Source of the DNA: Lacinutrix sp. WUR7
GTDB lineage: Bacteria > Bacteroidota > Bacteroidia > Flavobacteriales > Flavobacteriaceae
Direction: 5' to 3'
NCBI RefSeq assembly: GCF_016864015.1
Contig: NZ_CP045067.1
Coordinates: forward strand, 1,709,001 to 1,773,000
DNA: 64,000 nucleotides
A program made the translations under genes and the position numbers. This document shows, piece by piece, positions 2,528-28,095 of this stretch. The notes beneath the pieces are model-generated. The model was not told the origin of the DNA. It ran no database searches and saw only the letters and a list, made by a program, of their open reading frames with translations. Numbering within the stretch: position 1 is the stretch's first letter; the number at the start of each line of letters is the position of its first letter.

Positions 2528-4321
2528 ATGTCAGCACACGCAGATACACACGATCACGAAGCACACGAAGAGCATCACCATAAAGAAACTTTTGTAACTA
2601 AATATATATTTAGCCAAGATCACAAAATGATTGCAAAACAGTATTTAGTTACTGGTACAATCATGGGAGTTATTGGAGTAATCATGTCTCTTATGTTTCG
2701 TATGCAAATTGCATGGCCAGAAGAGCCAAATGTAATTTTTGAAGCATTATTAGGTAAATGGGCTCCAGGAGGAGTTATGGATGCAGATATTTATCTTGCA
2801 TTGGTAACTATTCATGGTACCATCATGGTATTCTTTGTATTAACAGCAGGATTAAGTGGTACCTTTAGTAACTTATTAATTCCGTTGCAAATTGGTGCAC
2901 GAGATATGGCTTCCGGGTTCTTAAATATGGTATCCTATTGGTTATTTTTCATCTCTTGTGTGATTATGTTAGGTTCCATTTTTGTGGAAGCAGGACCAGC
3001 AGCAGCAGGATGGACAATCTATCCGCCATTATCTGCATTGCCAATGGCATCCGGTGGTTCTGGTATGGGGATGACGTTATGGCTAGTTTCTATGGCTATA
3101 TTTATTGCTTCTTCTTTATTAGGATCTTTAAATTATATAGTTACCGTAATTAACTTACGTACTAAAGGAATGTCTATGACTAGACTACCTTTAACTATTT
3201 GGGCATTCTTTATTACAGCTGTTATTGGTGTAGTATCATTCCCTGTTTTATTATCGGCATGTTTATTATTAATAATGGATAGAAGTTTCGGTACATCCTT
3301 CTTCTTGTCTGACATATTTATTCAAGGTGAAGTTTTACATTATCAAGGTGGTTCACCAGTATTATTCGAACACTTATTCTGGTTCCTTGGGCATCCAGAA
3401 GTATATATTGTAATTTTACCTGCAATGGGTCTAGTATCCGAAATTATGGCAACCAATTCCCGTAAACCTATTTTTGGTTACCGTGCAATGATTGCTTCTA
3501 TTTTAGCAATTGCTTTCCTTTCAACAATCGTTTGGGGTCACCATATGTTTATTTCAGGTATGAATCCTTTCTTAGGATCTGTATTTACATTCACAACCTT
3601 ATTGATTGCAATTCCTTCCGCAGTAAAAGCTTTTAACTGGATAACCACGATTTGGAAAGGAAACATTCAAATGAATCCAGCCATGCTGTTTTCTATTGGA
3701 TTTGTTTCTACTTTCATTACAGGAGGTTTAACGGGTATTATTCTTGGAGATTCTGCATTAGATATTAATGTACACGATACGTACTTTGTAATTGCACACT
3801 TCCACTTAGTAATGGGTATATCTGCTCTTTACGGAATGTTTGCAGGTATCTACCATTGGTATCCAAAAATGTTCGGAAGAATGTTAAATAAAAACCTTGG
3901 TTATATTCACTTCTGGATTACTGCAATATGTGCTTACGGTGTTTTCTTCCCAATGCACTTTATTGGAATGGCAGGTTTACCAAGACGTTATTATACAAAC
4001 TCAAACTTTCCATTATTTGACGATTTAGCAAATACAAACGTAATCATTACCGTTTTTGCTTTAGTTGGTGGAGCAGTACAATTGATTTACTTATATAACT
4101 TCTTTAGCAGTATGTTCTTTGGTAAGAAAGCAGAGAAAAACCCTTGGAGAGCAACGACTCTTGAATGGACAACAGAAGTTAAACACATACATGGTAACTG
4201 GGCAGGAGATATTCCTCACGTATACCGATGGTCTTATGACTATTCTAAACCAGGACATGATGTAGATTTCGTTCCTCAAAACGTTCCTTTAAAAGAAGGT
4301 GAAGAAGAACTTCAACATTAA
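2528..4321 (+). CDS. coxA: Cytochrome c oxidase subunit I
   Basis: This is the catalytic heme-copper subunit that reduces oxygen to water and pumps protons. At 597 residues it has about twelve transmembrane segments. The active-site histidine and the tyrosine that is cross-linked to it in this family lie in WFLGHPEVYIVILP, the CuB histidines in WGHHMFISG, and the heme ligands in HFHLVMG, all intact. The N-terminus is rich in histidine and acid (residues 4-19 contain eight His), echoing the tail of ActF two genes upstream. The gene ends the actF-coxB-coxA run and is followed by a strong terminator hairpin. Subunits III and IV are not here but about 23 kb downstream. Confidence 0.96.
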   Translation: MSAHADTHDHEAHEEHHHKETFVTKYIFSQDHKMIAKQYLVTGTIMGVIGVIMSLMFRMQIAWPEEPNVIFEALLGKWAPGGVMDADIYLALVTIHGTIMVFFVLTAGLSGTFSNLLIPLQIGARDMASGFLNMVSYWLFFISCVIMLGSIFVEAGPAAAGWTIYPPLSALPMASGGSGMGMTLWLVSMAIFIASSLLGSLNYIVTVINLRTKGMSMTRLPLTIWAFFITAVIGVVSFPVLLSACLLLIMDRSFGTSFFLSDIFIQGEVLHYQGGSPVLFEHLFWFLGHPEVYIVILPAMGLVSEIMATNSRKPIFGYRAMIASILAIAFLSTIVWGHHMFISGMNPFLGSVFTFTTLLIAIPSAVKAFNWITTIWKGNIQMNPAMLFSIGFVSTFITGGLTGIILGDSALDINVHDTYFVIAHFHLVMGISALYGMFAGIYHWYPKMFGRMLNKNLGYIHFWITAICAYGVFFPMHFIGMAGLPRRYYTNSNFPLFDDLANTNVIITVFALVGGAVQLIYLYNFFSSMFFGKKAEKNPWRATTLEWTTEVKHIHGNWAGDIPHVYRWSYDYSKPGHDVDFVPQNVPLKEGEEELQH

Positions 4322-4360
4322 GATATACCTGTATTAACAGGAACATCATAACAATTACGA

Positions 4361-4483: not shown

Positions 4484-5506
4484 ATGAACGAAAACCTAAA
4501 TCCAACCGACGAGAATTTTTCACCTGAAGAATTTGATGTCGAAAAACAGTTAAGACCACTATCTTTTGACGATTTTACTGGTCAAGATCAAGTATTAGAA
4601 AATCTTCAAATCTTTGTGCAAGCAGCAAATGGTAGAGGGGAAGCTTTAGATCATACGCTTTTTCATGGTCCTCCAGGTTTAGGTAAAACAACCTTGGCAC
4701 ATATTCTTGCAAATGAGTTAGAAGTCGGAATTAAAATTACTTCAGGGCCTGTTTTAGATAAACCAGGAGACCTCGCAGGATTACTTACCAATCTTGAAGA
4801 AAGAGATGTGCTATTTATAGATGAAATACATCGATTAAGTCCAATTGTGGAAGAGTATTTATATTCTGCAATGGAAGACTACAAAATAGATATTATGATT
4901 GAAACCGGACCCAACGCAAGAACGGTTCAAATCAATTTAAATCCATTTACACTAATAGGAGCAACCACTCGTTCTGGATTATTAACAGCACCAATGCGTG
5001 CGCGTTTTGGAATTCAAAGTAGACTCCAATATTATAAAACCGAATTACTAACTACCATAGTACAACGTAGTGCCGAAATATTAGATGTACCCATTTCTAT
5101 GGAATCTGCTATAGAAATTGCAGGACGAAGTAGAGGAACACCTAGAATAGCCAATGCATTACTGCGTCGCGTTCGTGATTTTGCGCAAATAAAAGGAAAC
5201 GGTAGCATAGATATTAAAATTGCCCGGTATGCATTAGAAGCACTGCATGTAGATGCACATGGTTTGGATGAAATGGATAATAAAATTCTAACCACTTTAA
5301 TCGATAAGTTTAAAGGAGGACCAGTAGGTATCACCACATTGGCAACAGCGGTAAGTGAAAACTCCGAAACTATTGAAGAAGTTTATGAGCCTTTTCTTAT
5401 TCAACAAGGATTTATTATGCGAACACCTCGTGGAAGAGAAGTAACAGAACTTGCTTATAAACATTTAGGAAGAGTTAAAGGTCCTACGCAAGGCGGTTTG
5501 TTTTAA
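4484..5506 (+). CDS. ruvB: Holliday junction branch migration helicase RuvB
   Basis: RuvB is the AAA+ motor that drives branch migration of Holliday junctions with RuvA. The 340-residue length is typical. The Walker A motif GPPGLGKTT is at 62-70, the Walker B DEIH box at 113-116, and sensor/arginine-finger sequence GATTRSGLL follows; the C-terminal winged-helix domain ends in the usual [11 protein letters not shown]-type tail. The ATG at 4484 is six bases after a hairpin repeat, and nothing better lies upstream. ruvA is present but 9 kb away, so the ruvAB operon of other bacteria is split here, as is common in this phylum. No downstream partner is tightly linked. Confidence 0.97.
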
Positions 5507-5609
5507 TTTATAACCGATTGAAAAGTATTTTATTATCCAACTATGAATCCTAAAAGGATTTAGTAAATGCGTAACTTAGAGGAGTATAAAATATTTATAT
5601 AATATATAA

Positions 5610-6938
5610 ATGAATAATAAAATACCAGAAGTTTCTCTTTTTAGTTTCGTTAAGCATTCCTTAGAAATCCTTAAAAACCCACTTCCTTTTCATCATAAAT
5701 ATTTTGAAAAATTAGGAGATGTTTTTTGTTTAAAAATAGGTTTTAAATCTAAAGTTGTTTTTAGTCGAGATGCAGCATTGGCAGAATATGCACTTCAGAA
5801 AAACCAAAAGAATTATATTAAGTCAAAAATTCAAACAGAAGATTTAGTAAAGTATGTTGGTAAGGGTTTGCTAACTTCGGAAGGAGAGCATTGGCGAAAA
5901 CAACGTAAACTGATTCAGCCAGCTTTTCATAAAAACCAATTAAATAATCTATTAGATAGTATTCGTGATGCTATTCTTTCCGAATACGGAAAAATTACAC
6001 TGCACCAAACTATAGATATTTTTCCTATATGCAATGATTTAGCATTTCAAACGGTGGTTAAATCGCTATTTAGTAGTGCCGTAAATCAGGAAGAGATTAA
6101 CAGATTACAACATATCACAGAATCTGGACAAAAAATGTTGGTTAAAGAATTGCGACAACCTTATTTAGGATGGTGGTTTCAGTTAAGCGGGAAATTAAAG
6201 CATGAATTGGATTTAACACAAGAAGCACGAAATATATTACGCCGTATTGTTAATGAACGCAAAGCTTCCGCTGAAAAACATAACGATTTATTAGATATGC
6301 TTTTAGATGCTAGATATGAAGATGGTCAAGCCATGGAAGAGGAGCAACTCATTGATGAAATTCTAATTCTTTTTACAGCAGGACATGAAACCACATCTAA
6401 TGCGCTAACCTTTATATTTCAATTGTTAGCAAAACATCCAGAATGGCAAGAAAAAATTCATGAAGAAATAGTTAAAGTGGATGCAGAAACCGATGATTTA
6501 ATGACGCAGATTATGTCTTCAAAAGTAACGCAACAAGTAATAGAAGAGGGCATGCGATTGTATCCTCCAGCTTATTTTATAGATCGTGTAAATGTGCAAT
6601 CTGATAGTTTTAACGGTTTAGATTTAGAAGCAGGTTCTAATTTATTATTTTCTGTTTACGAAATACATCGCCATCCTGATTTATGGGAGCAACCAGAACA
6701 GTTTATGCCAGAGCGATTTGGGGAAGGAAGCAGGAAATTCTCCTCCCAGTATTTTCCATTTGGAGCTGGACCAAGAAAATGTATAGGAAATAACTTTGCT
6801 ATGTTTGAAATGATTTTGGCAGTTAAAGAACTAGTGAAGAGTTTTAAAATTCAAGCCCAATTTGAAGCAATAGAAATTACGCCATTAATCACATTAAAAC
6901 CCAAAAATGCGTTTCTAAAGTTTGAGATAAGAGCATAA
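5610..6938 (+). CDS. Cytochrome P450
   Basis: This is a heme-thiolate monooxygenase of unknown substrate. All family landmarks are present: I-helix oxygen-binding motif AGHETTS at 257-263, the ExxR motif EGMR at 313-316, and the heme-binding loop [12 protein letters not shown] with the proximal cysteine at 391. The 442-residue length is typical of a soluble bacterial P450; no signal peptide or membrane anchor is seen. No ferredoxin or reductase gene is next to it, so its redox partner must be encoded elsewhere. Its stop codon overlaps the start of queG by one base, implying co-transcription, although a functional link to tRNA modification is not obvious. Confidence 0.93.
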
Positions 6939-7864
6939 TGATAGATAATAAAGCGAAATACACAAAAATGATAAAAGACGAAGCCAAACGCCTCGATTTT
7001 TTGTCTTGTGGTATTAGTAAAGCTACATTTTTAGAAACCGAAGCACCAAGATTGGAAAATTGGTTAAATCAAAACATGCATGGCGAAATGCAATACATGG
7101 AAAATCATTTTGATAAACGGTTGGACCCTACAAAATTGGTGGGCGATTCTAAATCTGTGATTTCGTTATTACTAAATTACTATCCTTCAGAAGTACAAAA
7201 TCAAGACAGTTATAAACTGTCGAAATACGCATATGGTACCGATTATCATTTCGTAATAAAAGATAAACTCAAACATCTTTTACAATACATTCAAGAGGAA
7301 ATTGGGGAAGTTTCGGGACGTGCCTTTGTGGATTCTGCTCCAGTTTTAGACAAAGCGTGGGCTGCAAAATCTGGTTTAGGGTGGATAGGCAAACACAGCA
7401 ACCTACTCACGCAACAAACAGGATCCTTTTATTTTATAGCCGAACTTATTGTAGATTTAGACTTAGAATACGATTCCATTACCACAGACCATTGCGGGAC
7501 ATGTACTGCTTGCATTGATGCTTGTCCTACACAAGCCATTACAGAACCGTATGTAGTAGATGGCAGTAAATGTATTTCCTACTTTACTATCGAGTTAAAA
7601 GAGCAACTACCAAACAGCATGAAAGGTGCTTTTGACGATTGGATGTTTGGTTGTGATGTTTGCCAAGATGTTTGTCCGTGGAATAAATTCTCAAAACCGC
7701 ATAAGGAGCCACTTTTTAATCCGCATCCAGAATTGTTAGCAATGACAAAAAAAGACTGGGAAGAAATTACGCAAGAAACCTTTAGTAAAGTGTTTCAAAA
7801 ATCTGCAGTAAAGCGTACCAAGTTCTCTGGGTTAACGCGAAATATTCAATTCCTTAAAGAATAA
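6938..7864 (+). CDS. queG: Epoxyqueuosine reductase QueG
   Basis: QueG catalyses the last step of queuosine synthesis, reducing epoxyqueuosine in tRNA with a cobalamin and two 4Fe-4S clusters. The 308-residue protein has the N-terminal reductase domain with the expected [12 protein letters not shown] stretch (the aspartate at 132 is the likely catalytic acid), then cluster ligands C186, C189, C192 and C196, and a second set at C212, C239, C242 and C246. Its length matches the short, HEAT-less form of the family. The ATG overlaps the P450 stop in ATAATG. It is cytoplasmic, and no other queuosine gene is nearby. Confidence 0.95.
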
Positions 7865-15037: not shown

Positions 15038-18000
15038 TTGAATACAACTAACTATAAGTCCGCAATCGAAATTAAAACGCAACTTTTTACTATAGCTGCA
15101 ATTTTATTGTCTTTTGTAGCTTGGTCACAAGAACCAACACCGCAAGATTCTACAAGCACAGGGTACAGTTTAGGTAATTTGCAAATGCCTAATCCTACCA
15201 GTATTGTTTCGCAATACACCTATGACCCTGTTACAGATAGATATATTTATACAGAATCTGTAGGAACATTCAATATTAACTATCCGGTAATTTTAACTCC
15301 AAAAGAATTTCAAAGTCTAGTTGCAAAAGAAAATCAAAGAAGCTACTACAAACAAAAAATAGATGCTTTTGATGGTAAAAAAGAAGGAAGTGAAGAGGAA
15401 CAAAAAAACCTATTGCCAGAATTTTATGTAAACTCCGGGCTTTTTGAAACTATTTTTGGAAGTAATACCATTGAAGTGGTGCCACAAGGATCTGTAGAAA
15501 TGGATTTAGGAGTGCTATTCACCAAACAAGATAATCCTTCATTTTCTCCTAGAAATAGAAGTAATTTTACTTTTGATTTTGATCAACGTATTAGCTTAAG
15601 TTTATTAGGAAAAGTAGGAACGCGTTTGCAAGTAACAGCAAACTATGATACAGAATCTACTTTCGATTTTCAAAATTTAGTAAAGTTAGAATACACACCA
15701 ACGGAAGATGATATTATTCAAAAAATAGAAGTAGGTAACGTAAGTATGCCACTTAATAGTTCTTTAATTACGGGAGCACAAAGTTTATTTGGTGTAAAAA
15801 CACAATTGCAATTTGGTAAAACTACCATTACAGCCGTTTATTCTGAACAAAAATCAGATACTAAAACCGTAGTTGCTCAAGGAGGAGGAACATTGGAAGA
15901 GTTCGACTTTTATGCTAGAGACTATGATGAAAACAGACACTTCTTTTTAGCACATTATTTTAGAGATAATTATGATAATGCCTTAAATAACTATCCTTTT
16001 ATAAACTCCCAAGTACAAATTACTAGAATAGAAGCTTGGATTACAAATAGAAGTAACAGAACAGAAAACGTAAGAAATATTGTTGCATTACAAGATTTAG
16101 GAGAATCCAATCCAAATAATATAGGTTCTACTGTAAATATCCTAGATCCGAATCCAAATGCATATCCAGATAATGATAATAATGCTTTCGATCCAACAAA
16201 CATTGGCGGAGGAGGATCTCAGCTTAATGATCTAATTAGAGATATTGCTACTGTACAAAATGGTATTACAGTTCCAGGTGTTTCTGAAGGAGCAGATTAT
16301 GCAAAACTAGAAAACGCAAGAAAACTATTAGAAGGGCAAGAGTATGTGTTAAATACGCAATTAGGTTATATTTCTTTAAACCAACGTTTAAATAATGATG
16401 AAGTATTAGCCGTTGCCTTTCAATTTACCGTGGCAGGAGTAGTATATCAAGTTGGTGAATTTGCAAATGATGGTGTAGATGCTACTGGAGTTACTACAGA
16501 TGTGGACGGAAACGTTACATCGGTTACCAATAACAACTTAGTTTTAAAATTAATAAAAAGTCCAATTACATCTACTTCCCAACCAATTTGGGATTTAATG
16601 ATGAAAAATATTTATGATACAGGAGCGTATCAATTAAGTCAAGAAGATTTTAAATTAAATATTTTTTATAACGAAGGTTCTCCAGTAAACTTTATTACGC
16701 CAGAAGGCGGAACTTTTGGTGTAGATATTAATGGGAGTATTATAACTGCAAGTACACCTTCAGAAGATTTAATAGAAAATAATCCTTTACTTCGTCTGTT
16801 TCATTTAGACAAATTGAACTACAATAATGATCCGCAAGTTGGTGGAGATGGTTTCTTCGATTTTGTTTCTGGGATTACCGTAATTCCGCAAAACGGAAAA
16901 ATTGTATTTACAAAAGTGGAGCCTTTTGGTGAGTATATATTTGATAAACTTTCTTTAGGAACAGAAGATTATGAAATGTCAACGTCATATAATCCTAATC
17001 AGGCAAAATTTGTATATGATATCCTATATAAAGAAACCAAAACCGCTGCTTTAGAGGAAGTAGAGAAAAATAAATTCCAAATTAATGGGCGTTATACATC
17101 CTCTGGTAGTGGAGGAGGTATTTCCATTGGTGCGTTTAATGTGCCAAGAGGTTCTGTGGTTGTTACAGCTGGAGGGCGTGTTTTAGTAGAAGGTATCGAT
17201 TATACCGTAAACTATCAATTAGGTACCGTGCAAATTTTAGACGAAGCGCTAAAAGCATCCAATACACCAATTCAAGTATCTACAGAGAATAATTCTATTT
17301 TCGGACAAACATCAAAGCGTTTTTTCGGATTAAATGTAGAGCATAAGTTTAATGAAAATTTTGTTATTGGTGCAACTTATATAGGGTTAAAAGAAAGGCC
17401 GGTAACCCAAAAAGCAAACTACAATAGTGAGCCAATAAACAATCAAATTTATGGTTTAAATGTAAACTACTCTACAGAAGTTCCTTTTCTAACTAGATTA
17501 GTAAATAAACTACCAAATATTGATACCGATGCACCTTCTAACTTTTCCATAAGAGGAGAAGTTGCTGCATTAAAACCAGGATCGCCTAGCGGAACAGATT
17601 TTGATGGAGAAGCAACTTCTTATATAGATGATTTTGAAGGGTCACAAAGTGCAATAGATTTAAAATCGGCTAGTTCTTGGTACTTATCTAGTAGACCAAA
17701 AGGATTAACATCACCAGGTTCTTCAGAAGATAATGTAATTCAAAATGGTTTTGGTAGAGCAATGTTAAACTGGTATCATGTAGATCCAATTTTTTATAGT
17801 AGCAGTAGACCAGATGGGATTAGTGATGATGATATGTCTGGTTTATATTCTTCAAGAGTATTTATTAATGAACTTTTCCCGCAACAAGATATAGCACAAG
17901 GACAAACAACCGTTTTAAATACGTTAGACTTGGCTTACTATCCGGAAGAACGTGGTCCTTATAACTTTGAACTAGGAGCTCAAAGTGGTACTTTAAATAC

Positions 18001-21000
18001 ACCTCAAAATTCTTGGGCAGGAATTTCACGACAACTTACTTCTACAGATTTTGAGCAAGCAAATGTAGAATATATTGAGTTTTGGTTACAAGATCCTTTT
18101 CAGGAAAACACTACCAATCCAGGAGGTAAATTAGTGTTTAATCTTGGTAATATTTCAGAAGATATTATTAAAGATGGTAGAAAAATATATGAAAATGGTT
18201 TACCACAAGATGGTAATATTGCTTTAGGAACTACAAGTACAAGTTGGGGAACCGTTGTACCACAAAATCAATCTTTAATTTATGCCTTTGATACCACAGG
18301 GCAGGAACGTACCAATCAAGATGTTGGTTATGATGGGCTTGATGATAGTGAAGAAGCTGTTCTTCCTCCAAATTTTATAGATGATCCAGTATTAGATGAT
18401 ATTTATCGTCCTTTTAGAGGGTTGGATGATCCTTCAAATGATAACTACTCTTACTTTTTAAATACAGATGGAGATGTTTTTGAAAGATATAAACGTTATA
18501 ATGGAGTAGATGGTAATTCACCAGATACCTTTAGTGATACCAACAGAGGAAGCTCTACACAACCAGATGTTGAAGATATTAATAGAGATAACACAATGAA
18601 TACCATTGATGGTTATTTTGAATATGAGCTAGATATTACTCGTGCAACGTTAAATGTAGATAGTAATCCGTTAATTGTAGATTCTAAAGTAGCATCTAGA
18701 AATATGCCAAACGGAACATCACAAACCGTAAATTGGTATCAATTTAGGGTTCCTATTTCAGAACCTACAACAGATCAAGGAGGTGATATTCGTTCTATGC
18801 GTTTTGCACGTATGTATGTTAAAGAGTTTACAGAGCCTACATTTTTTAGATTTGGTTCTTTAGATTTAGTACGTAGTGAATGGAGAAGGTACTCGCAAAC
18901 CTTAGATTTAGATGATGTAGATCCTACAGATGATGATACTAATTTTAGTATTGGTGTAATTAGTACTTTAGAAAATGATGGGGATTATGATTCTCCTCCA
19001 GGAGTAGATCCAGAAGAATTATATAACAACAATACCGTAATTAGACAAAACGAACAATCCTTAGTGGTTAATGTTTGCGATTTGGAAGAAGAAGATGCAA
19101 GGGCTGTTTACAAAAATATAAATGTAGATATGAGGCAGTATAAACAACTTAAAATGTTTATGCATGCAGAAGCAGGAGAAGATTTTTCTTCTTTATCCGA
19201 CGGAGAATTAGTTGGTTTTATAAGAATGGGTAATGACCTTTCACAAAACTATTACCAAATTGAAGTACCTCTTGTAGTATCAACAGGTAGATCTAGAACA
19301 GATCTTTGGCCTGAAGCTAATGAGTTAAATATTGAATTAGCGCTTTTACAAGAAATGAAAGCAAAAGCTATTTCAGATAATTTTAGTGCAACAGAAGCTA
19401 CCTTTTATGATGTTATAGACGGAAACTTAAGTGAGAATGCGGTTGCAGAATTTTCAGATTATGTAGTTGGACAACAACGTGTAGCAATATTTGGTAATCC
19501 TAATTTTGGAGACATAAGAAGTTTAATGGTTGGTGTTAAAAACGCTAGTACGACAGAAAAATGTGGGGAAATTTGGTTTAATGAGCTTCGTCTTGCAGAA
19601 ATGGATAATGAAGGTGGTTGGGCAACTGTAGTAAGTGCAGATGCAAACATTGCAGATTTTGCAAATGTTAGCGCAACAGGTAGATATAGCACTTCTGGTT
19701 TTGGTTCTATAGAACAAGGACCTCAAGAGCGTAGTCTAGAAGATGTGCAACAATATGATGTAGTTACCAATATAAACGCAGGGCAGTTGTTACCAAAAAA
19801 ATGGGGAATTCAAATCCCATTTAATTATGGCCAAGGAGAGGAAAGTATTACTCCTAAATACGATCAACTTTACGAAGATATTGAGTTGCAAACAAGAATA
19901 GATGCGGCAACAACTAACGAGGAAAAAGAAACTATTAGAGAGCAATCTGAAACTTATACTAAAAGAAAGAGTATCAATTTTATTGGTGTAAGAAAAAATA
20001 GAACTACAGACAAAAAACCGCAATTCTATGATGTAGAAAACTTAACATTAAGTTACTCTTATAACAAAGTAGAGCATCGTGATTTTGAAATAGAACGCTC
20101 TCTAGACCAACAAGTGCGAACAGGAGCAACTTATGCTTATAGTTTTGCGCCATTTTCTATAGAACCATTTAAAAAGAACGATTCTTTATTTACTGGAAAA
20201 TACTGGAAAATATTAAAAGATTTTAATATCAACCCTTTACCTTCAAGCTTTACCGTTAATTCTAATTTTAACAGACAGTTTAATAAACAGAAATTTAGAG
20301 ACATAGATTTAGGAGGTTCTAATATAGGTTTAGAAGAATTATATAAAAGAAATTACACCTACGATTTTCAATATACATTAAATTTCAATCTAACAAAATC
20401 ATTAAGTTTAGACTTTACTTCTTCAAGTGATAAAATTGTAAGAAACTATTATATTGATGATGAGTTAAACGGAAGACAAGATCCAGAATTAACCGTTTGG
20501 GATGGCTTTTTCGATTTTGGAGACCCAAACAGATTATACCAAAAACTTGGCGTAAACTACCAATTGCCTATAAATAAAATACCAACCTTTAGCTTTATTG
20601 ATGCAACATATACTTATAGTGGTGAGTTTCAATGGCAAAAAGGATCTGATTTATATGGGGATATAGAGTATGTAGATGCCAGTGGTGGAGGATTGTCTGG
20701 AACGTATGATTTAGGAAATTCTATTTCTAATGCAAGTCAGCATAATATTAATACATCTTTAGATATGAAAAAGTTGTATAAATATATTGGGATATCGCAA
20801 AAAAAATCTAGAACCAGTAGTAAAATTAGTAGACCGCAAAGAGCAACACCTCCTGGTGCAGAGGATAAAACAAAAAAACCGAAACAAGCTAAGAAAACAG
20901 GAAAACTAGCAAATTTCGGAATAGGCTTATTGACAAGTGTAAAACGTATTCAGTTAAATTATAACGAAGCTAATGGTACGTATCTTCCAGGTTATAAACA

Positions 21001-22300
21001 ATCACCAGGATTTGCAGGTACATTAAAACCTACTGTTGGTTATACTTTTGGTAGTCAACGTGATATTAGAGATTTAGCTGCACGAAATGGATGGTTAACG
21101 CAATACCCAGAATTTAATCAACAGTATACAGAAACACATTCTAAGCAATTTGATTACGCGATTAATGTAGAGCCGTTTAACGATTTGAAACTAGATATTG
21201 TTGGTAATAGAATATATGCTGAGAATTTAACCGAAAACTATAACGTAAATAGTGATTACGAATATGTGCACCAAACACCAAATACATACGGTAACTTTAC
21301 AATTTCAACAGCTTTAATTAAAACAGCATTTAATAAAAGTGATGAAAATGAATCTAAAACTTTTGATGTTTTTAGAACAAATAGATTAGTAATTGCAAAT
21401 CGATTAGCGAATAAATTTTATGGTAATGCAACTTTTAATAGAGATGCAGATGGTTATCCAGAAGGATTTGGTAAATCTAGTCAAGCCGTATTATTACCTT
21501 CCTTTGTATCTGCATACCAAGGTCAAGATGCTAGCAAGACAAAAACTAGTGCTTTAAGAAATATACCAATTCCTAATTGGGATTTAAAGTATACAGGTTT
21601 CATGAAATTAAAATGGTTTAAAAAACGATTTAAGCGTTTTTCTTTATCACATGGGTATCGCTCTGCATATACTATTAATCAGTTTAGAACAAACCTAGAT
21701 TTAAATTTAGATCCAGATGATAATGAGGCTCCAGTTCCAGGCGTAGACTATGCTAGCCAACCAACAGAAGCATTAGACCAAAATGGGGATTTTAAAAATG
21801 AAAAATTATACAGTAATATTAACTTAACAGAAATGTTTAGTCCATTATTTCGTATAGATTTTGAATCTAAAAGTGCTATAAAAGTACTTTTAGAAATGAA
21901 AAAAGATAGAATGCTATCCTTAAGTTTCGATAATAATTTAATGACAGAAATTCAAGGTAAAGAATACGTAGTAGGTTTAGGGTACCGAATTAAAGATGTA
22001 AGAATGAAATCTAAACTTGCAGGGCCAACTAAAACCATAATTAGTGACATCAACCTTAAGGCAGATGTTTCTTTTAGAGATAATAAAACAATAATTAGAT
22101 ATTTAGATTTAGAAAACAATCAAATAACATCGGGTCAATCGCTATGGAGTGGTAAGTTTACAGCCGATTATGCATTTAGTAAAAACTTAACAGGGATTTT
22201 CTATTTTGATTATACGTTTTCAGAATATGCAATATCTACAGCGTTTCCACAAACCACAATTAGATCTGGTTTAACATTAAGATATAATTTTGGTAATTAA
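15038..22300 (+). CDS. sprA: Type IX secretion translocon / gliding motility protein SprA (Sov)
   Basis: SprA is the giant outer-membrane beta-barrel that forms the protein-conducting pore of the type IX secretion system, needed for gliding and secretion of surface adhesins. The 2420-residue length is right for the family, and the sequence is beta-rich with many Asn/Asp/Thr repeats. A signal peptide spans about 1-31 (ending AWSQ). A strongly basic stretch lies near residues 1921-1957. The start is TTG at 15038: an in-frame TAA sits at 15032 and no ATG occurs before the signal peptide ends, so TTG is the only sensible start. It lies six bases after ruvA and before gcvH, an order I recall from related genomes. 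Confidence 0.96.
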   Translation: MNTTNYKSAIEIKTQLFTIAAILLSFVAWSQEPTPQDSTSTGYSLGNLQMPNPTSIVSQYTYDPVTDRYIYTESVGTFNINYPVILTPKEFQSLVAKENQRSYYKQKIDAFDGKKEGSEEEQKNLLPEFYVNSGLFETIFGSNTIEVVPQGSVEMDLGVLFTKQDNPSFSPRNRSNFTFDFDQRISLSLLGKVGTRLQVTANYDTESTFDFQNLVKLEYTPTEDDIIQKIEVGNVSMPLNSSLITGAQSLFGVKTQLQFGKTTITAVYSEQKSDTKTVVAQGGGTLEEFDFYARDYDENRHFFLAHYFRDNYDNALNNYPFINSQVQITRIEAWITNRSNRTENVRNIVALQDLGESNPNNIGSTVNILDPNPNAYPDNDNNAFDPTNIGGGGSQLNDLIRDIATVQNGITVPGVSEGADYAKLENARKLLEGQEYVLNTQLGYISLNQRLNNDEVLAVAFQFTVAGVVYQVGEFANDGVDATGVTTDVDGNVTSVTNNNLVLKLIKSPITSTSQPIWDLMMKNIYDTGAYQLSQEDFKLNIFYNEGSPVNFITPEGGTFGVDINGSIITASTPSEDLIENNPLLRLFHLDKLNYNNDPQVGGDGFFDFVSGITVIPQNGKIVFTKVEPFGEYIFDKLSLGTEDYEMSTSYNPNQAKFVYDILYKETKTAALEEVEKNKFQINGRYTSSGSGGGISIGAFNVPRGSVVVTAGGRVLVEGIDYTVNYQLGTVQILDEALKASNTPIQVSTENNSIFGQTSKRFFGLNVEHKFNENFVIGATYIGLKERPVTQKANYNSEPINNQIYGLNVNYSTEVPFLTRLVNKLPNIDTDAPSNFSIRGEVAALKPGSPSGTDFDGEATSYIDDFEGSQSAIDLKSASSWYLSSRPKGLTSPGSSEDNVIQNGFGRAMLNWYHVDPIFYSSSRPDGISDDDMSGLYSSRVFINELFPQQDIAQGQTTVLNTLDLAYYPEERGPYNFELGAQSGTLNTPQNSWAGISRQLTSTDFEQANVEYIEFWLQDPFQENTTNPGGKLVFNLGNISEDIIKDGRKIYENGLPQDGNIALGTTSTSWGTVVPQNQSLIYAFDTTGQERTNQDVGYDGLDDSEEAVLPPNFIDDPVLDDIYRPFRGLDDPSNDNYSYFLNTDGDVFERYKRYNGVDGNSPDTFSDTNRGSSTQPDVEDINRDNTMNTIDGYFEYELDITRATLNVDSNPLIVDSKVASRNMPNGTSQTVNWYQFRVPISEPTTDQGGDIRSMRFARMYVKEFTEPTFFRFGSLDLVRSEWRRYSQTLDLDDVDPTDDDTNFSIGVISTLENDGDYDSPPGVDPEELYNNNTVIRQNEQSLVVNVCDLEEEDARAVYKNINVDMRQYKQLKMFMHAEAGEDFSSLSDGELVGFIRMGNDLSQNYYQIEVPLVVSTGRSRTDLWPEANELNIELALLQEMKAKAISDNFSATEATFYDVIDGNLSENAVAEFSDYVVGQQRVAIFGNPNFGDIRSLMVGVKNASTTEKCGEIWFNELRLAEMDNEGGWATVVSADANIADFANVSATGRYSTSGFGSIEQGPQERSLEDVQQYDVVTNINAGQLLPKKWGIQIPFNYGQGEESITPKYDQLYEDIELQTRIDAATTNEEKETIREQSETYTKRKSINFIGVRKNRTTDKKPQFYDVENLTLSYSYNKVEHRDFEIERSLDQQVRTGATYAYSFAPFSIEPFKKNDSLFTGKYWKILKDFNINPLPSSFTVNSNFNRQFNKQKFRDIDLGGSNIGLEELYKRNYTYDFQYTLNFNLTKSLSLDFTSSSDKIVRNYYIDDELNGRQDPELTVWDGFFDFGDPNRLYQKLGVNYQLPINKIPTFSFIDATYTYSGEFQWQKGSDLYGDIEYVDASGGGLSGTYDLGNSISNASQHNINTSLDMKKLYKYIGISQKKSRTSSKISRPQRATPPGAEDKTKKPKQAKKTGKLANFGIGLLTSVKRIQLNYNEANGTYLPGYKQSPGFAGTLKPTVGYTFGSQRDIRDLAARNGWLTQYPEFNQQYTETHSKQFDYAINVEPFNDLKLDIVGNRIYAENLTENYNVNSDYEYVHQTPNTYGNFTISTALIKTAFNKSDENESKTFDVFRTNRLVIANRLANKFYGNATFNRDADGYPEGFGKSSQAVLLPSFVSAYQGQDASKTKTSALRNIPIPNWDLKYTGFMKLKWFKKRFKRFSLSHGYRSAYTINQFRTNLDLNLDPDDNEAPVPGVDYASQPTEALDQNGDFKNEKLYSNINLTEMFSPLFRIDFESKSAIKVLLEMKKDRMLSLSFDNNLMTEIQGKEYVVGLGYRIKDVRMKSKLAGPTKTIISDINLKADVSFRDNKTIIRYLDLENNQITSGQSLWSGKFTADYAFSKNLTGIFYFDYTFSEYAISTAFPQTTIRSGLTLRYNFGN

Positions 22301-23169: not shown

Positions 23170-23898
23170 ATGGAACTTAAGAAAAATCCAAAAGCAAACG
23201 TTGGTAGAAATAGTGGTCTATACTTTTTAATAGGTTTAGCGCTAATGTTATTTTTAACAAATTTTGCAATTAATTATAAAACATACGATAAGTCTGTTAT
23301 AGATATCGGACAATTAGATTTAGGTGAAGATTTAGACGAAGAAGTGCCTATTACAGAGCAAATACAAACACCACCACCACCACCACCACCACCAGCAGCA
23401 CCAGAAGTTATTGAGGTTGTTGAAGATGAGGTAGAAGTTGAGGAAACAGTTATAGAGTCTACAGAAACAGATCAAGAAGAAGAAATTGTTGAGGTTGAAG
23501 AAGTAGAAGAAATCGAAGAAGTAGAAGAAGATATTGAAGTTCCTTTTGCGGTTATTGAAAACGTTCCTGTTTTTCCAGGATGCGAAAAGGAAGCGAACAA
23601 CAATGCAAGAAAAAAATGTATGTCTGAAAAAATCAGCAAGTTTGTAAATAAAAAATTCAACACAGACTTAGCACAAGATTTAGGATTAAATGCAGGTAAG
23701 CACAGAATTAGCATTCAATTTAAAGTAGATAAAAATGGAAATGTTGTTGGTGTAAGAGCAAGAGCTCCACATCCAAAATTAGAGCAAGAAGCTGTAAAAG
23801 TGGTAAGTCAATTACCTAAAATGAAGCCAGGTATGCAACGTGGTAAAGCGGTAACAGTACCTTACGGTTTCCCAATCTCATTCCAAGTACAAGACTAA
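23170..23898 (+). CDS. tonB: Energy transducer TonB (first of two)
   Basis: TonB transmits proton-motive force from ExbB/ExbD to outer-membrane transporters. The 242-residue protein has a single N-terminal membrane anchor (about 16-35), a run of eight prolines near residue 68, a very acidic Glu/Val linker (about 78-127), and a C-terminal TonB domain starting after the motif PVFPGCE (about 133-139) and containing KVDKNGNVVGVRAR. The motif and two conserved cysteines are typical of Bacteroidota. No exbBD or TonB-dependent receptor gene is adjacent. A terminator follows, so it is expressed separately from the second tonB. Confidence 0.92.
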   Translation: MELKKNPKANVGRNSGLYFLIGLALMLFLTNFAINYKTYDKSVIDIGQLDLGEDLDEEVPITEQIQTPPPPPPPPAAPEVIEVVEDEVEVEETVIESTETDQEEEIVEVEEVEEIEEVEEDIEVPFAVIENVPVFPGCEKEANNNARKKCMSEKISKFVNKKFNTDLAQDLGLNAGKHRISIQFKVDKNGNVVGVRARAPHPKLEQEAVKVVSQLPKMKPGMQRGKAVTVPYGFPISFQVQD

Positions 23899-24014: not shown

Positions 24015-24809
24015 ATGAGAAATCTAAAGAATTCTTACGACCTCAATGACCAAAAAGAGGAAAGCGTAAAAAAATCACAAAAGCATGATGTAAATTTACA
24101 AAAAAACACTACTATTTACTTTCAAATAGGTTTAATTGTATGTTTACTATTTAGCTACGGACTTTTAGAAATGGAGTTTGCTAGCAAAACGTACACGACC
24201 GCAGTAGCTTGGGTAGATGATTTACCAGTAGATTATGTTCCAGATACCTTTAAGGTTTATGAGGAACCCGTTAAAGAGGTAAAAGAAACGCCAAAGAAGG
24301 AGGAGCCTAAATTTGTAGATAAAGTAAAAGTTGTTGATGATGATGATACTATTGCCAAAGAAACAGCAGGAATCATCACAGAACCTGAAATAACAAATGT
24401 AGTGCCAAGCGAGCCAGATTTTAGAGGTTTAGAAAAAGTTCCAGAAGAAGTAACTCTTCCTTATGCTAAGGTGGAAGTGACCCCTGTGTTTCCAGGTTGT
24501 GAAAAAGCAACAACCAATGCAGAACGTAAAGCATGTATGTCTAAAAAAATAGCAAGACACATTCAGAAAAAGTTTGACACAGATATTGCTAGTGAATTAG
24601 GTTTATCTGGAAGACAAAGAATTAATGTAGCTTTTAAGATTGACCAAAATGGAGATATAACAGAAGTTACTGCAATTACAAAACACAAAGAATTAAAATT
24701 AGAGGCAGAAGATGTAATAGGTAAATTACCAAAAATGATTCCTGGTAAACAACATAATAAAAATGTTTCTGTTGTCTATTCACAACCTATTATTTTTAAT
24801 GTAAATTAA
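24015..24809 (+). CDS. Energy transducer TonB (second of two)
   Basis: This 264-residue TonB paralogue has a longer cytoplasmic tail (about 33 residues, lysine-rich) before its membrane anchor (about 34-54), a linker rich in Lys, Glu and Val but without the poly-proline run of its neighbour, and a C-terminal TonB domain starting with PVFPGCEKA near residue 157. The C-terminal domains of the two proteins are clearly alike, so the pair arose by duplication, while the linkers have diverged. Flanking terminators on both sides make it an independent unit. It probably serves different receptors or has different reach across the periplasm. Confidence 0.9.
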   Translation: MRNLKNSYDLNDQKEESVKKSQKHDVNLQKNTTIYFQIGLIVCLLFSYGLLEMEFASKTYTTAVAWVDDLPVDYVPDTFKVYEEPVKEVKETPKKEEPKFVDKVKVVDDDDTIAKETAGIITEPEITNVVPSEPDFRGLEKVPEEVTLPYAKVEVTPVFPGCEKATTNAERKACMSKKIARHIQKKFDTDIASELGLSGRQRINVAFKIDQNGDITEVTAITKHKELKLEAEDVIGKLPKMIPGKQHNKNVSVVYSQPIIFNVN

Positions 24810-24934: not shown

Positions 24935-27037
24935 ATGAAGAAATTCATCTTTTTACTTCTTCTTATTCCATACGTTACCTTTTCACAAGAAGATTCTTTT
25001 TTCGAAAAGCCTCCCGTTTTTCCAAATTGCGAAGCTTCAGAAATAGAAAGCCTTCAAAATTGTTTTGATGCGAACGTGTTAAATCATATTTTCAATACAT
25101 TTAAAACACCGGAAGTCGTTTCCGAAGAAAAGTATGTAGGAGAAGTAGTTGTGCTTTTTGAAGTAGATAAGGAAGGTGCTTTTCGTGTTATATACGTTGA
25201 TGCCATGTATGATGAACTAAAAGACGAAGCAACGCGTGTTTTTGATGCATTACCAAAAATTAAACCAGGAACCTATAATGGGAAACCAACGTTTAAACAA
25301 TATTCTATTCCTATTCAGATTCCTATTGTAAACCAAGCGGTTGCAACCAAGAGTCTTGCATCTAAAAATCTTGAAAAGGAAGAAGAGAAAATGTCTATTG
25401 AAGAAGCTATTAAAACCGAATATGATAGCGTTAATAAAAAGCTGGTTCCATACACGAATAAAGAATATACGAGTCAGTTAAATATACCTTTTACACATAG
25501 TGGATATGCTAAATTTGATAGAAATATTAATCTAGTTGGTACAAATAGCCATACTGCATCTAAGCCATTTGTATATGAAGACGTTTCTAAATATTACGAT
25601 TTTAAAGCAGAAAAAGAAGCATTAACAAAAGGAAAGGAAACCTTAGTCTCTAGAAAATTATGGAACGAACATCTTGTGCGTTATCAGGCAGAAAACTACT
25701 GGTTTACTATAGATCCTATTTTTGATTTTGAAGTTGGTAAAGATACCGACGCCGATTTTAGTTCTACCTATAATAATACAAGAGGAATTAATATTCAAGG
25801 AGGATTAGGGGAGAAGTTTAGTTTCTATGCTTCGGTTTTTGAAAGTCAAGGACGCTTTGCACAATATTATAACCAATATGCGGAATCTATAAAAGCTTCC
25901 GATGAAGTTGCTATAATTCCGGGTAGAGGAATTGCAAAACGATTTAAAGATGATTCTTATGATTATCCTGTTGCTGAAGCATATTTATCGTATTCACCTA
26001 CCGATTTTTTAAACGTACAATTTGGTCATGGTAAAAACTTTATTGGAGATGGGTATCGTTCACTGTTTGTAAGTGATGTTGCTAGTCCTTCCCCGTTTTT
26101 AAAGATTAACACTAAATTCTGGAAGATAAAGTACACCAATACTTGGATGTGGTTAAAAGATGTTACACCAGCAGGAACAGATGCAGAAGGTGCTTATTTA
26201 AGTAAATACATGGCAACGCACTTTTTAAGTTGGAATGCCACAAAACGTTTAAATGTTGGTTTTTTCGAATCCATTGTTTGGGCAAAATCGCAAAACAGAG
26301 GTTTTGATATAAATTACATCAACCCAATTATATTTTATCGTGCTATCGAGTTTGAAACTGGGCAAGATGCAGGAAATGCAATAATGGGTTTATCTGCTAA
26401 ATATAAAATTAACGATAACATCAATGCATACAGTCAGTTTGTGCTAGATGAATTTTCATTAAGCGATATTACAGGAGGAGAACAAAGCTGGAAAAACAAA
26501 TTTGGATATCAATTAGGTGTAAAGTATTACAATGCTTTTAAAGTGGACAACCTGATGTTACAAGCAGAATATAATAGAGTACGACCATATACCTACTCGC
26601 ACAACAGTACTTTTTTAAATTACGGACATAACAACCAATCGATGGCACATCTTTGGGGAGCCAATTTTAGTGAGTTGGTTTTAATTGGTCGTTACCACTA
26701 TAAACGCTGGTTTGCAAATGCAAAAATAAATCTAGGAGTTAGAGGTTTAGATTTTGATAATAATGTTAGTTATGGAAATAATATTTACCAAAGTTATAAC
26801 GATAGACCAGGAGATACAGGAATTACAGTAGGACAAGGAAACAAGACTAAAACATTCTATTCCAACCTGCAAGCTGGTTACCTAATTAATCCTGCAACCA
26901 ATCTAAAAATATTTGCAGATATAAGTGTTAGAGATTTTAATCCGGAAGCACAAACAGCCACTACCTTTAAAAATAATACCGTTTGGTTTAATTTTGGAAT
27001 TAGAACCGACTTGTTTAACTGGTATTTTGATTTGTAG
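24935..27037 (+). CDS. remB: RemB-like gliding motility outer-membrane protein with N-terminal TonB-type domain
   Basis: The 700-residue protein has a signal peptide (1-17, ending VTFS), then a domain at about 26-132 that aligns with the TonB C-terminal domains of the two genes upstream: it starts PPVFPNCE and has FEVDKEGAF and LPKIKPGTYNGKP in matching order. The remainder, from about 190 onward, is rich in aromatic beta strands and resembles outer-membrane proteins of the capsule-assembly/RemB kind. RemB was linked to gliding in Flavobacterium johnsoniae; the name is assigned from memory of sequence style and context and is less sure than the outer-membrane location. No plug domain is present, so it is not a TonB-dependent receptor. 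Confidence 0.65.
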   Translation: MKKFIFLLLLIPYVTFSQEDSFFEKPPVFPNCEASEIESLQNCFDANVLNHIFNTFKTPEVVSEEKYVGEVVVLFEVDKEGAFRVIYVDAMYDELKDEATRVFDALPKIKPGTYNGKPTFKQYSIPIQIPIVNQAVATKSLASKNLEKEEEKMSIEEAIKTEYDSVNKKLVPYTNKEYTSQLNIPFTHSGYAKFDRNINLVGTNSHTASKPFVYEDVSKYYDFKAEKEALTKGKETLVSRKLWNEHLVRYQAENYWFTIDPIFDFEVGKDTDADFSSTYNNTRGINIQGGLGEKFSFYASVFESQGRFAQYYNQYAESIKASDEVAIIPGRGIAKRFKDDSYDYPVAEAYLSYSPTDFLNVQFGHGKNFIGDGYRSLFVSDVASPSPFLKINTKFWKIKYTNTWMWLKDVTPAGTDAEGAYLSKYMATHFLSWNATKRLNVGFFESIVWAKSQNRGFDINYINPIIFYRAIEFETGQDAGNAIMGLSAKYKINDNINAYSQFVLDEFSLSDITGGEQSWKNKFGYQLGVKYYNAFKVDNLMLQAEYNRVRPYTYSHNSTFLNYGHNNQSMAHLWGANFSELVLIGRYHYKRWFANAKINLGVRGLDFDNNVSYGNNIYQSYNDRPGDTGITVGQGNKTKTFYSNLQAGYLINPATNLKIFADISVRDFNPEAQTATTFKNNTVWFNFGIRTDLFNWYFDL

Positions 27038-27169: not shown

Positions 27170-27177
27170 TATCTTTG
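27170..27177 (+). promoter_or_regulatory. Promoter -7 box for ctaB
   Basis: TATCTTTG fits TAnnTTTG. It overlaps a TTG at 27175 that could otherwise be read as an earlier start, so the real start must lie downstream at 27202. Confidence 0.6.
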
Positions 27178-27201
27178 CACTCGCAAAACAAAGCGTTTTA
27201 T

Positions 27202-28095
27202 TTGAGTACAACAGCCACATCTACAGTACAACATAGCATAATTTCAGATTTTAAAGAAATTACCAAAATGCGCTTGGCATTAAGTGTCGTGTTTTCTTCG
27301 CTTGCTGGTTACTTATTAGGTGTAGATACGGTAGATTATAAAACCCTTATTCTATTAGCCTTTGGAGGTTATTTTATGGTTGGTGCATCTAATGCGTTCA
27401 ATCAAATTATAGAGAAAGATCTAGATGCTTTAATGGATAGAACCAAAGACAGGCCAGTTGCTGCAGGACGTATGTCTGTAAATACGGCCTTTGCCATTGC
27501 TTCTATTTTTACCGTTTTAGGAATCGTTATTTTATATATAATAAATCCGCAAACAGCCATGTTTGGAGCGATTTCTATATTTTTATATGCTTGTGTGTAT
27601 ACACCATTAAAAACAAAAACACCATTATCTGTGTTTGTAGGTGCTATTCCAGGAGCAATTCCATTTATGTTAGGTTGGGTTGCTGCTACTAATGATTTTG
27701 GTATCGAATCAGGGACCTTATTTGCTATACAGTTTTTCTGGCAATTCCCTCATTTCTGGGCTATTGGCTGGTTTTTATACGACGATTATAAAAAGGGAGG
27801 TTTCTTTATGTTACCTACTAGAAAAAAAGATAAAGGTACAGCAGTACAAACTATTGTATATACGGTATGGACGGTTTTAGCTTCGCTAATTCCAGCATTT
27901 GGTTTTACAGGAAAATTATACCTAACCCCAATTTCGGCAATTATTGTTGGACTTTTAGGTTTAGGATTGCTTTATTTTGCTTTACAATTATTTAAAAAAA
28001 TGACAACACAAGCAGCAAAAACATTAATGATTGCTAGTGTTTCTTATATTACATTGCTACAAATAGTATATGTATTAGATAAATTTATACGTTAA
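27202..28095 (+). CDS. ctaB: Protoheme IX farnesyltransferase (heme O synthase)
   Basis: CtaB (CyoE) attaches a farnesyl group to heme B, giving heme O, the precursor of the heme A used by cytochrome oxidase. It is a polytopic membrane protein of about 297 residues. The first prenyl-diphosphate motif reads NAFNQIIEKDLDALMDRTKDRP, split here as NAFNQ...DLDALMD, and a second acidic loop DDYKKGGFFML is present. The start chosen is TTG at 27202 (LSTTATSTVQ), because the TTG at 27175 lies inside the promoter box. The gene heads the second oxidase cluster and ends two bases before a subunit III gene, so it is co-expressed with its target. Confidence 0.95.
   Translation: MSTTATSTVQHSIISDFKEITKMRLALSVVFSSLAGYLLGVDTVDYKTLILLAFGGYFMVGASNAFNQIIEKDLDALMDRTKDRPVAAGRMSVNTAFAIASIFTVLGIVILYIINPQTAMFGAISIFLYACVYTPLKTKTPLSVFVGAIPGAIPFMLGWVAATNDFGIESGTLFAIQFFWQFPHFWAIGWFLYDDYKKGGFFMLPTRKKDKGTAVQTIVYTVWTVLASLIPAFGFTGKLYLTPISAIIVGLLGLGLLYFALQLFKKMTTQAAKTLMIASVSYITLLQIVYVLDKFIR

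Follow-up and report, generated by a model that had tools for sequence, protein, structure and literature searches.

A TonB C-terminal-type domain joined to a Wzi-like barrel in the RemB-like protein of a flavobacterial gene row

Organisation of the remB locus

The window, meaning the whole 64,000-nucleotide stretch of DNA analysed, contains sprA, gcvH, a vanZ-like gene, tonB1, tonB2, a remB-like gene, and a cyoE-like gene, in that order and all on the forward strand. The type IX secretion gene sprA (15038-22300) is the first gene of the conserved row, and a TIGR04189 match lies inside its ORF (G000:C1:1724179-1731294). tonB1 (23170-23898) and tonB2 (24015-24809) each encode a TonB protein, with C-terminal domains at about 23548-23895 and 24465-24806, respectively. 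The remB-like gene (24935-27037) is an ORF of 700 amino acids, followed downstream by the cyoE-like ORF (27175-28095). The names gcvH and cyoE are presumptive for these neighbours. Across the loci compared, the conserved row is sprA-gcvH-vanZ-(tonB)-remB-cyoE, and a test of gene order found both sprA upstream and cyoE downstream of remB. In some loci, such as L016, L020, and L021, tonB1 and remB have no tonB2 found between them. In a profile search of the window's family, most of the 150 matching genomes had a single remB-like match.

The RemB-like protein (hereafter RemB) can be divided into five parts. A signal-peptide-like start, judged by eye from the sequence, occupies residues 1-18 (24935-24988) and is followed by a TonB C-terminal-type domain at residues 22-131 (24998-25327), delimited by sequence, structure, and conservation and containing the conserved Cys32 and Cys43. 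Residues 132-154 (25328-25396) form a variable, charged linker of low conservation, of which residues 136-153 have a pLDDT below 50 in the full-length model. A helical region at residues 155-243 (25397-25663), seen as helices in the model, stands ahead of a Wzi-like beta-barrel at residues 248-691 (25676-27007), modelled with 18 long strands and one short strand. The barrel includes the conserved stretch GKNFIGDGYRSL. Full-length RemB is found in 79 of the 80 named loci, with the domain present in them, and is interrupted in L015. At L015:6467-8565 and L191, from a close relative, the remB frame appears broken inside the TonB-like domain, leaving ORFs that correspond to residues 1-76 and 91-700.

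RemB begins with a TonB C-terminal-type domain

The original prediction assigned a TonB-type domain to the N-terminal part of RemB from motifs shared with the two upstream TonB proteins, and this assignment is borne out. In alignments of RemB with TonB1 and TonB2, the PVFPxCE start, a D-x-x-G turn between strands, and the LPKxxPG motif occur in the same order. Two-sequence BLASTP of RemB residues 21-142 gave 30% identity to TonB1 (E 1e-12) and 34% identity to TonB2 (E 9e-13). A hidden Markov model built from 139 TonB1 and TonB2 C-terminal sequences, with RemB excluded, matches RemB residues 23-130 with an E-value of 4.7e-19, and among the 108 window ORFs of at least 60 amino acids just TonB1 and TonB2 score higher. 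The Pfam TonB_C model (PF03544) gives a borderline match to residues 59-127 (E 0.0011; 19.8 bits, under the 24.6-bit cut-off), and in the genome scan it gave this stretch 24.2 bits, or 24.8 bits counting neighbours in frame.

Structure prediction, which had been suggested as a check in case the domain aligned poorly to TonB, gave a good match. Modelled alone with AF2, the domain has a mean pLDDT of 93.9. Foldseek returned two matches at E <= 0.001, 6i97 (8.8e-4) and 5lw8 (1.0e-3), each of them a TonB C-terminal domain. In the VIA comparison, rows 1-23 are TonB (including the homologue FusB) or TolA C-terminal domains with Z-scores from 8.5 to 4.6, and the first unrelated protein follows in row 24 (Z 3.9). 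The VIA rows of the full-length model include no TonB, that part of the model being barely tested there. A profile of the domain searched against PDB sequences did not find TonB, and the matches it returned are taken as chance. The domain begins at residue 22 of RemB, whereas those of TonB1 and TonB2 begin at residues 127 and 152, respectively. Across 64 aligned RemB proteins Cys32 and Cys43 never vary, and in 72 rows of the domain their conservation is at least 95%.

A TonB C-terminal fold following a signal-peptide-like start and joined to a barrel was thus predicted correctly, as judged from sequence and models. The accompanying idea that export sets this domain apart was not upheld, since the genome encodes other exported TonB-fold domains. 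The Pfam scan of the genome lists ten TonB_C matches, RemB among them. Within this genome the domain most similar to that of RemB is not a neighbour's; with 43% identity, it belongs to a TonB encoded about 0.92 Mb from remB on the same contig.

Several further TonB-type proteins were observed. Three adjacent short TonB_C-type ORFs (L003, L005, and L009; G000:C1 about 1806885-1808592), two of them with signal-peptide-like starts, lie beside a gene that is presumably thymidylate-synthase-like. An M56 (BlaR1-type) peptidase with a TonB_C domain (L006:1522-2958) adjoins a lipoprotein-like ORF with a weak TonB-type domain (L006:886-1422). Tandem arrangements of at least two TonB-type domains occur in L187 (G636), where both such proteins have signal-peptide-like starts, at G006:C36 67438-68676, and at G001:C6 117464-118255.

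Relation of the domain to the neighbouring tonB genes

The original prediction treated adjacency to tonB as part of the domain's nature, a view that is not supported: RemB proteins bearing the domain are found without an adjacent tonB in L029, L030, L046, L063, and L215-L217, one of the two outcomes that it had named as refuting. Of 140 loci, 136 extend at least 900 bases upstream of remB; in 108 of these 136 a TonB-domain ORF is found inside that stretch, and in 28 it is missing. Most loci from the phylum search reach 900-1000 bases upstream. In L029, L030, L046, and L063, no TonB-domain ORF occurs in about 6 kb upstream of remB. Twenty of the 28 loci lacking tonB (L130-L149) come from one genus, g128, which we take as Flavobacterium. 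In L215-L217, which are from the same genus and have longer flanks, the order is sprA-gcvH-vanZ-deoC-remB-cyoE with no tonB between sprA and remB; the gene between vanZ and remB is deoC-like by our reading. L150 and L152, counted as lacking tonB, carry it further upstream (L219 and L218, respectively), and L106 and L123 are tonB-less only within the upstream bases covered.

Phylogeny had been proposed as a way to learn whether the domain came from the neighbouring tonB genes. In the domain tree, which is based on 116 columns, has long branches meeting, and misses one L078 row, the domains of RemB group in a single clade (99/92), and those of both neighbours fall in another supported branch (98/90) to which this clade does not belong. 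The stem of the RemB clade is long, at 1.6 changes per column, and its link to TonB proteins of G002 and to a lipoprotein-like row of very great length is weak (50/82). We considered a recent duplication of a neighbouring tonB and provisionally rejected it given the position of the clade outside the neighbours' branch and its long stem; yet a forced clade of RemB with TonB2 is not rejected by the AU test (p 0.26) on these 116 columns. In L218 and L219, tonB, a deoC-like gene, and an acetyltransferase-like gene precede remB, so that capture of the RemB domain from a then-neighbouring tonB is possible.

The domain could alternatively serve as a decoy or dimer partner for TonB, binding the TonB boxes of receptors or the C-terminal domains of TonB and so tuning TonB traffic. 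Such a role would suit the closest structural row, the TonB domain of 6i97 in complex with the receptor FoxA (Z 8.5), as well as the frequent presence of tonB within 900 bases and the cysteine pair, which is common to TonB1 and TonB2. Against it, RemB keeps the domain where tonB is not near. The last strand of a TonB C-terminal domain pairs with the TonB box, and in RemB this strand (residues 121-129) has a mean conservation of 0.62 versus 0.81 for the strand at residues 69-77 (72 rows), a mild point against a TonB-box-type role. We consider a decoy function unlikely.

The modelled barrel of RemB resembles Wzi

The full-length AF2 model of RemB, whose confidence is middling (pLDDT 68.5, pTM 0.61), shows helices followed by 18 long strands; an 18-stranded barrel preceded by helices is therefore present in a model of moderate confidence. 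Its best VIA match is Wzi (2ynk; Z 20.3, rmsd 3.9, 354 residues aligned from residue 180), which has both the best Z-score and the longest alignment among the 50 rows listed. The second row is OccK3 (Z 18.4, 293 aligned), AlgE scores 17.9, and the Occ porins and AlgE thus lie 2 to 3 Z units from Wzi. Foldseek places OccD2, OccAB2, and AlgE on top, and Wzi is not among the 50 matches listed. According to the available parts of PMC9601211, Wzi is a barrel of 18 strands with a helical bundle at its N-terminus that shuts it towards the periplasm, and it is needed to anchor capsule but not for capsule export. On the basis of the model we take residues 155-243 as the probable counterpart of the helical plug of Wzi, the alignment with which begins at residue 180.

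RemB and Wzi have 11% identity in the structural alignment. RemB itself does not match the Pfam model Caps_assemb_Wzi (PF14052) at E <= 1, and all ten order-level barrels scanned miss its cut-off; the cut-off is reached by seven of the 28 barrel proteins scanned, RemB counted (L156 and L161-L166). Against PDB sequences, the single RemB sequence returned nothing at E <= 1, and profiles of the RemB barrel and of diverse barrels did not find Wzi, their matches being taken as chance. Because its own sequence misses the Pfam model while seven relatives pass it, we name RemB Wzi-like without filing it in PF14052: it is linked to Wzi in sequence through intermediates.

Barrel relatives and their gene neighbourhoods

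Of 395 genomes from the phylum, 201 contain relatives that match the barrel profile; within the order, 84 of 196 do. Ten proteins encoded first or second from the barrel in eight loci (L168, L200, L203, L204, L206, L208, L209, and L210), picked by eye as resembling products of sugar genes, were searched against Pfam, and all ten had matches: four to Glycos_transf_4, three to Polysacc_synt_2, and one each to UDP-GlcNAc 2-epimerase, GDP-mannose dehydratase, and the general hexapeptide-transferase repeat. Seven of these eight loci come from the 15 order-level loci, the rest of which were read by eye. Also by eye, a cyoE-like gene follows the barrel in L207, L209, and L168, and cox-like genes do so in L206; more generally, a cyoE-like gene adjoins some barrels that have no TonB-type domain. 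This shared cyoE- or cox-like place after the barrel suggests that RemB is the form taken by the same barrel gene in the window's family. There, remB sits in the sprA-cox gene row, outside a polysaccharide locus; the genome has two Poly_export matches.

Two other arrangements were seen around these barrels. In L168, from another order, two Wzi-like barrels (2839-4338 and 5464-7014) flank a Glycos_transf_4 gene just ahead of the cyoE-like gene. An acetyltransferase-like gene with hexapeptide repeats, the repeats being a Pfam result for L200 alone, adjoins remB or a domain-less barrel in L200, L201, L218, L219, L220, L121, and L123.

The neighbouring glycosyltransferase and sugar-nucleotide genes of some relatives would also fit an AlgE- or EpsX-type polysaccharide exporter, or a porin, with a periplasmic adaptor domain. 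EpsX offers a precedent in the available parts of PMC9601211, and the top Foldseek matches and the AlgE row in VIA point the same way. The RemB model, though, has a Wzi-like helical region before the barrel, which EpsX lacks as described in that source, and Wzi leads the listed VIA rows in both Z-score and alignment length. An exporter or porin of this kind seems to us improbable.

Distribution and history of the fusion

The TonB hidden Markov model matched 71 of 105 barrel proteins and missed 34. By origin, the domain is present in 71 of 74 barrel proteins from the window's family, L120, L121, and L122 being the exceptions, and in none of 31 from outside it. This count takes in 12 of the 80 named loci and identical barrels once, with L086 titled just Bacteroidetes; the family loci L091-L119 come from a full-length-profile search biased to domain-bearing proteins, and 30 outside loci were hand-picked from match lists. 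A search of the order with the barrel alone gave 24 matches in the family, all 24 in open frames of 686-733 amino acids; in 60 other genomes of the order, the matches listed lie in frames of at most 588 amino acids except for one of 847, which has no TonB domain.

The full-length-profile search of the family gave matches in 150 genomes, of which 142, by our reading of the listing, have a match beginning at profile position 7 or earlier. Among the other eight, G128, G228, and G234 are without the domain, G214 has a diverged domain, and G116 holds a piece at a contig end, while the rows for G186, G204, and G208 are not among the matches listed. A quick barrel tree of 67 of the 105 proteins, leaving out near-duplicates and the distant L165-L167, needs two changes in the state of the TonB domain. 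We read these as one gain near the base of the family and one loss in L121, the placing of L120 and L122 being tentative.

Proposed role of RemB and its relation to gliding

We propose, with a probability of roughly 55%, that RemB is a Wzi-like polysaccharide-binding barrel to which a periplasmic docking domain was added early in the history of the family. The observations behind this proposal are that the domain has a TonB-type fold and the model a Wzi-like one, that relatives lie beside polysaccharide-type genes in the examined loci, and that the distribution is consistent with a single gain. The barrel would lie in the outer membrane and hold or organise surface polysaccharide, its N-terminus having gained the TonB C-terminal-type domain early in family history. 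The signal-peptide-like start and the layout of Wzi suggest a protein with no inner-membrane anchor and a periplasmic domain. Signal-peptide cleavage, which we infer, would leave the domain on the periplasmic side, in front of the helical plug. There it would most likely serve as a passive dock that attaches to peptidoglycan or to a strand of some other envelope protein and thereby keeps the barrel in place within the envelope. Pulling of the TonB kind is not expected of it, since it has neither the long linker of TonB nor, by sequence, an inner-membrane anchor. Polysaccharide binding, docking, and any link to gliding are likewise inferred.

A far bolder version, and one that we think very unlikely, has the domain pair with TonB proteins of the inner membrane through their C-terminal domains, or else with a component of the gliding or type IX machinery, so that the proton-motive force would indirectly drive a capsule-holding barrel. 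If it were true, energised envelope machinery would move or remodel surface polysaccharide, with a Wzi-type lectin driven from the periplasm.

In their available parts, two gene tables head secretion-system rows with the secretion of RemA/RemB (PMC4572689, PMC4891872); these headings, if data-based, fit a protein secreted to the surface better than an integral barrel. RemB could instead be chiefly an adhesin for gliding that is exported to the cell surface, its TonB-like domain being an anchor or a remnant. This reading agrees with those tables, where remB is given as adhesin-like, and with the joint absence of remA, remB, and sprB from two non-gliding species in the available parts of PMC6801697. 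It is unlikely given that the model is a membrane barrel, that 201 of the 395 phylum genomes have relatives, and that 142 of the 150 family genomes have a match beginning at profile position 7 or earlier, hardly expected of a remnant.

We also considered whether type IX secretion requires RemB and rejected this as a rule: at E <= 1e-20, 244 of the 249 family genomes have SprA, and 150 have RemB. The name RemB has also been given to a Sphingobacterium protein, according to the available parts of PMC4666044.

A Wzi-like barrel with a docking domain would give RemB, listed as adhesin-like in gliding tables, a testable mechanism: a polysaccharide barrel combined with a TonB-fold dock. If the Wzi-like reading holds, the surface polysaccharide of gliding flavobacteria would be tied to the sprA-remB gene row. 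RemB is, moreover, a case of the TonB C-terminal fold used apart from an energy-transducing machine, the gain of which can be traced to about the base of a single family. In our judgement, the meaning of the finding lies in a Wzi-like barrel gaining a TonB-fold dock more than in rivalry with the adjacent tonB genes. In the open-licence literature we did not find RemB described with a TonB-type domain, and a prior description is possible in subscription papers, which were mostly outside this scope; nor did the available parts of that literature link Wzi to flavobacterial gliding.

Comparison with known systems

RemB of Flavobacterium johnsoniae (Fjoh_1657) is the likely named counterpart, by locus tags and gene order: in the available parts of the sources, the tags Fjoh_1653 (sprA) and Fjoh_1657 (remB) fit the row sprA-gcvH-vanZ-deoC-remB of L215-L217. 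The remB products of these three loci match the RemB of the window at 51-56%, and they differ from it in having no adjacent tonB.

The N-terminal domain shares with the TonB C-terminal domain (PF03544) its fold and the PVFPxC, DxxG, and LPKxxPG pattern of the neighbouring TonB proteins. Unlike TonB energy transducers, RemB has no long periplasmic linker, and the domain stands straight after a signal-peptide-like segment and is joined to a barrel. Other exported TonB-fold proteins of the same genome are a TonB_C-bearing M56 peptidase and a short protein that combines a signal-peptide-like start with a TonB_C domain; neither is joined to a barrel.

Wzi, the outer-membrane lectin of E. coli group 1 capsules (2ynk), resembles RemB in its 18-stranded barrel with helices ahead of it. 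RemB differs in adding a TonB-type domain and a linker, and in having no direct match to the Pfam Wzi model.
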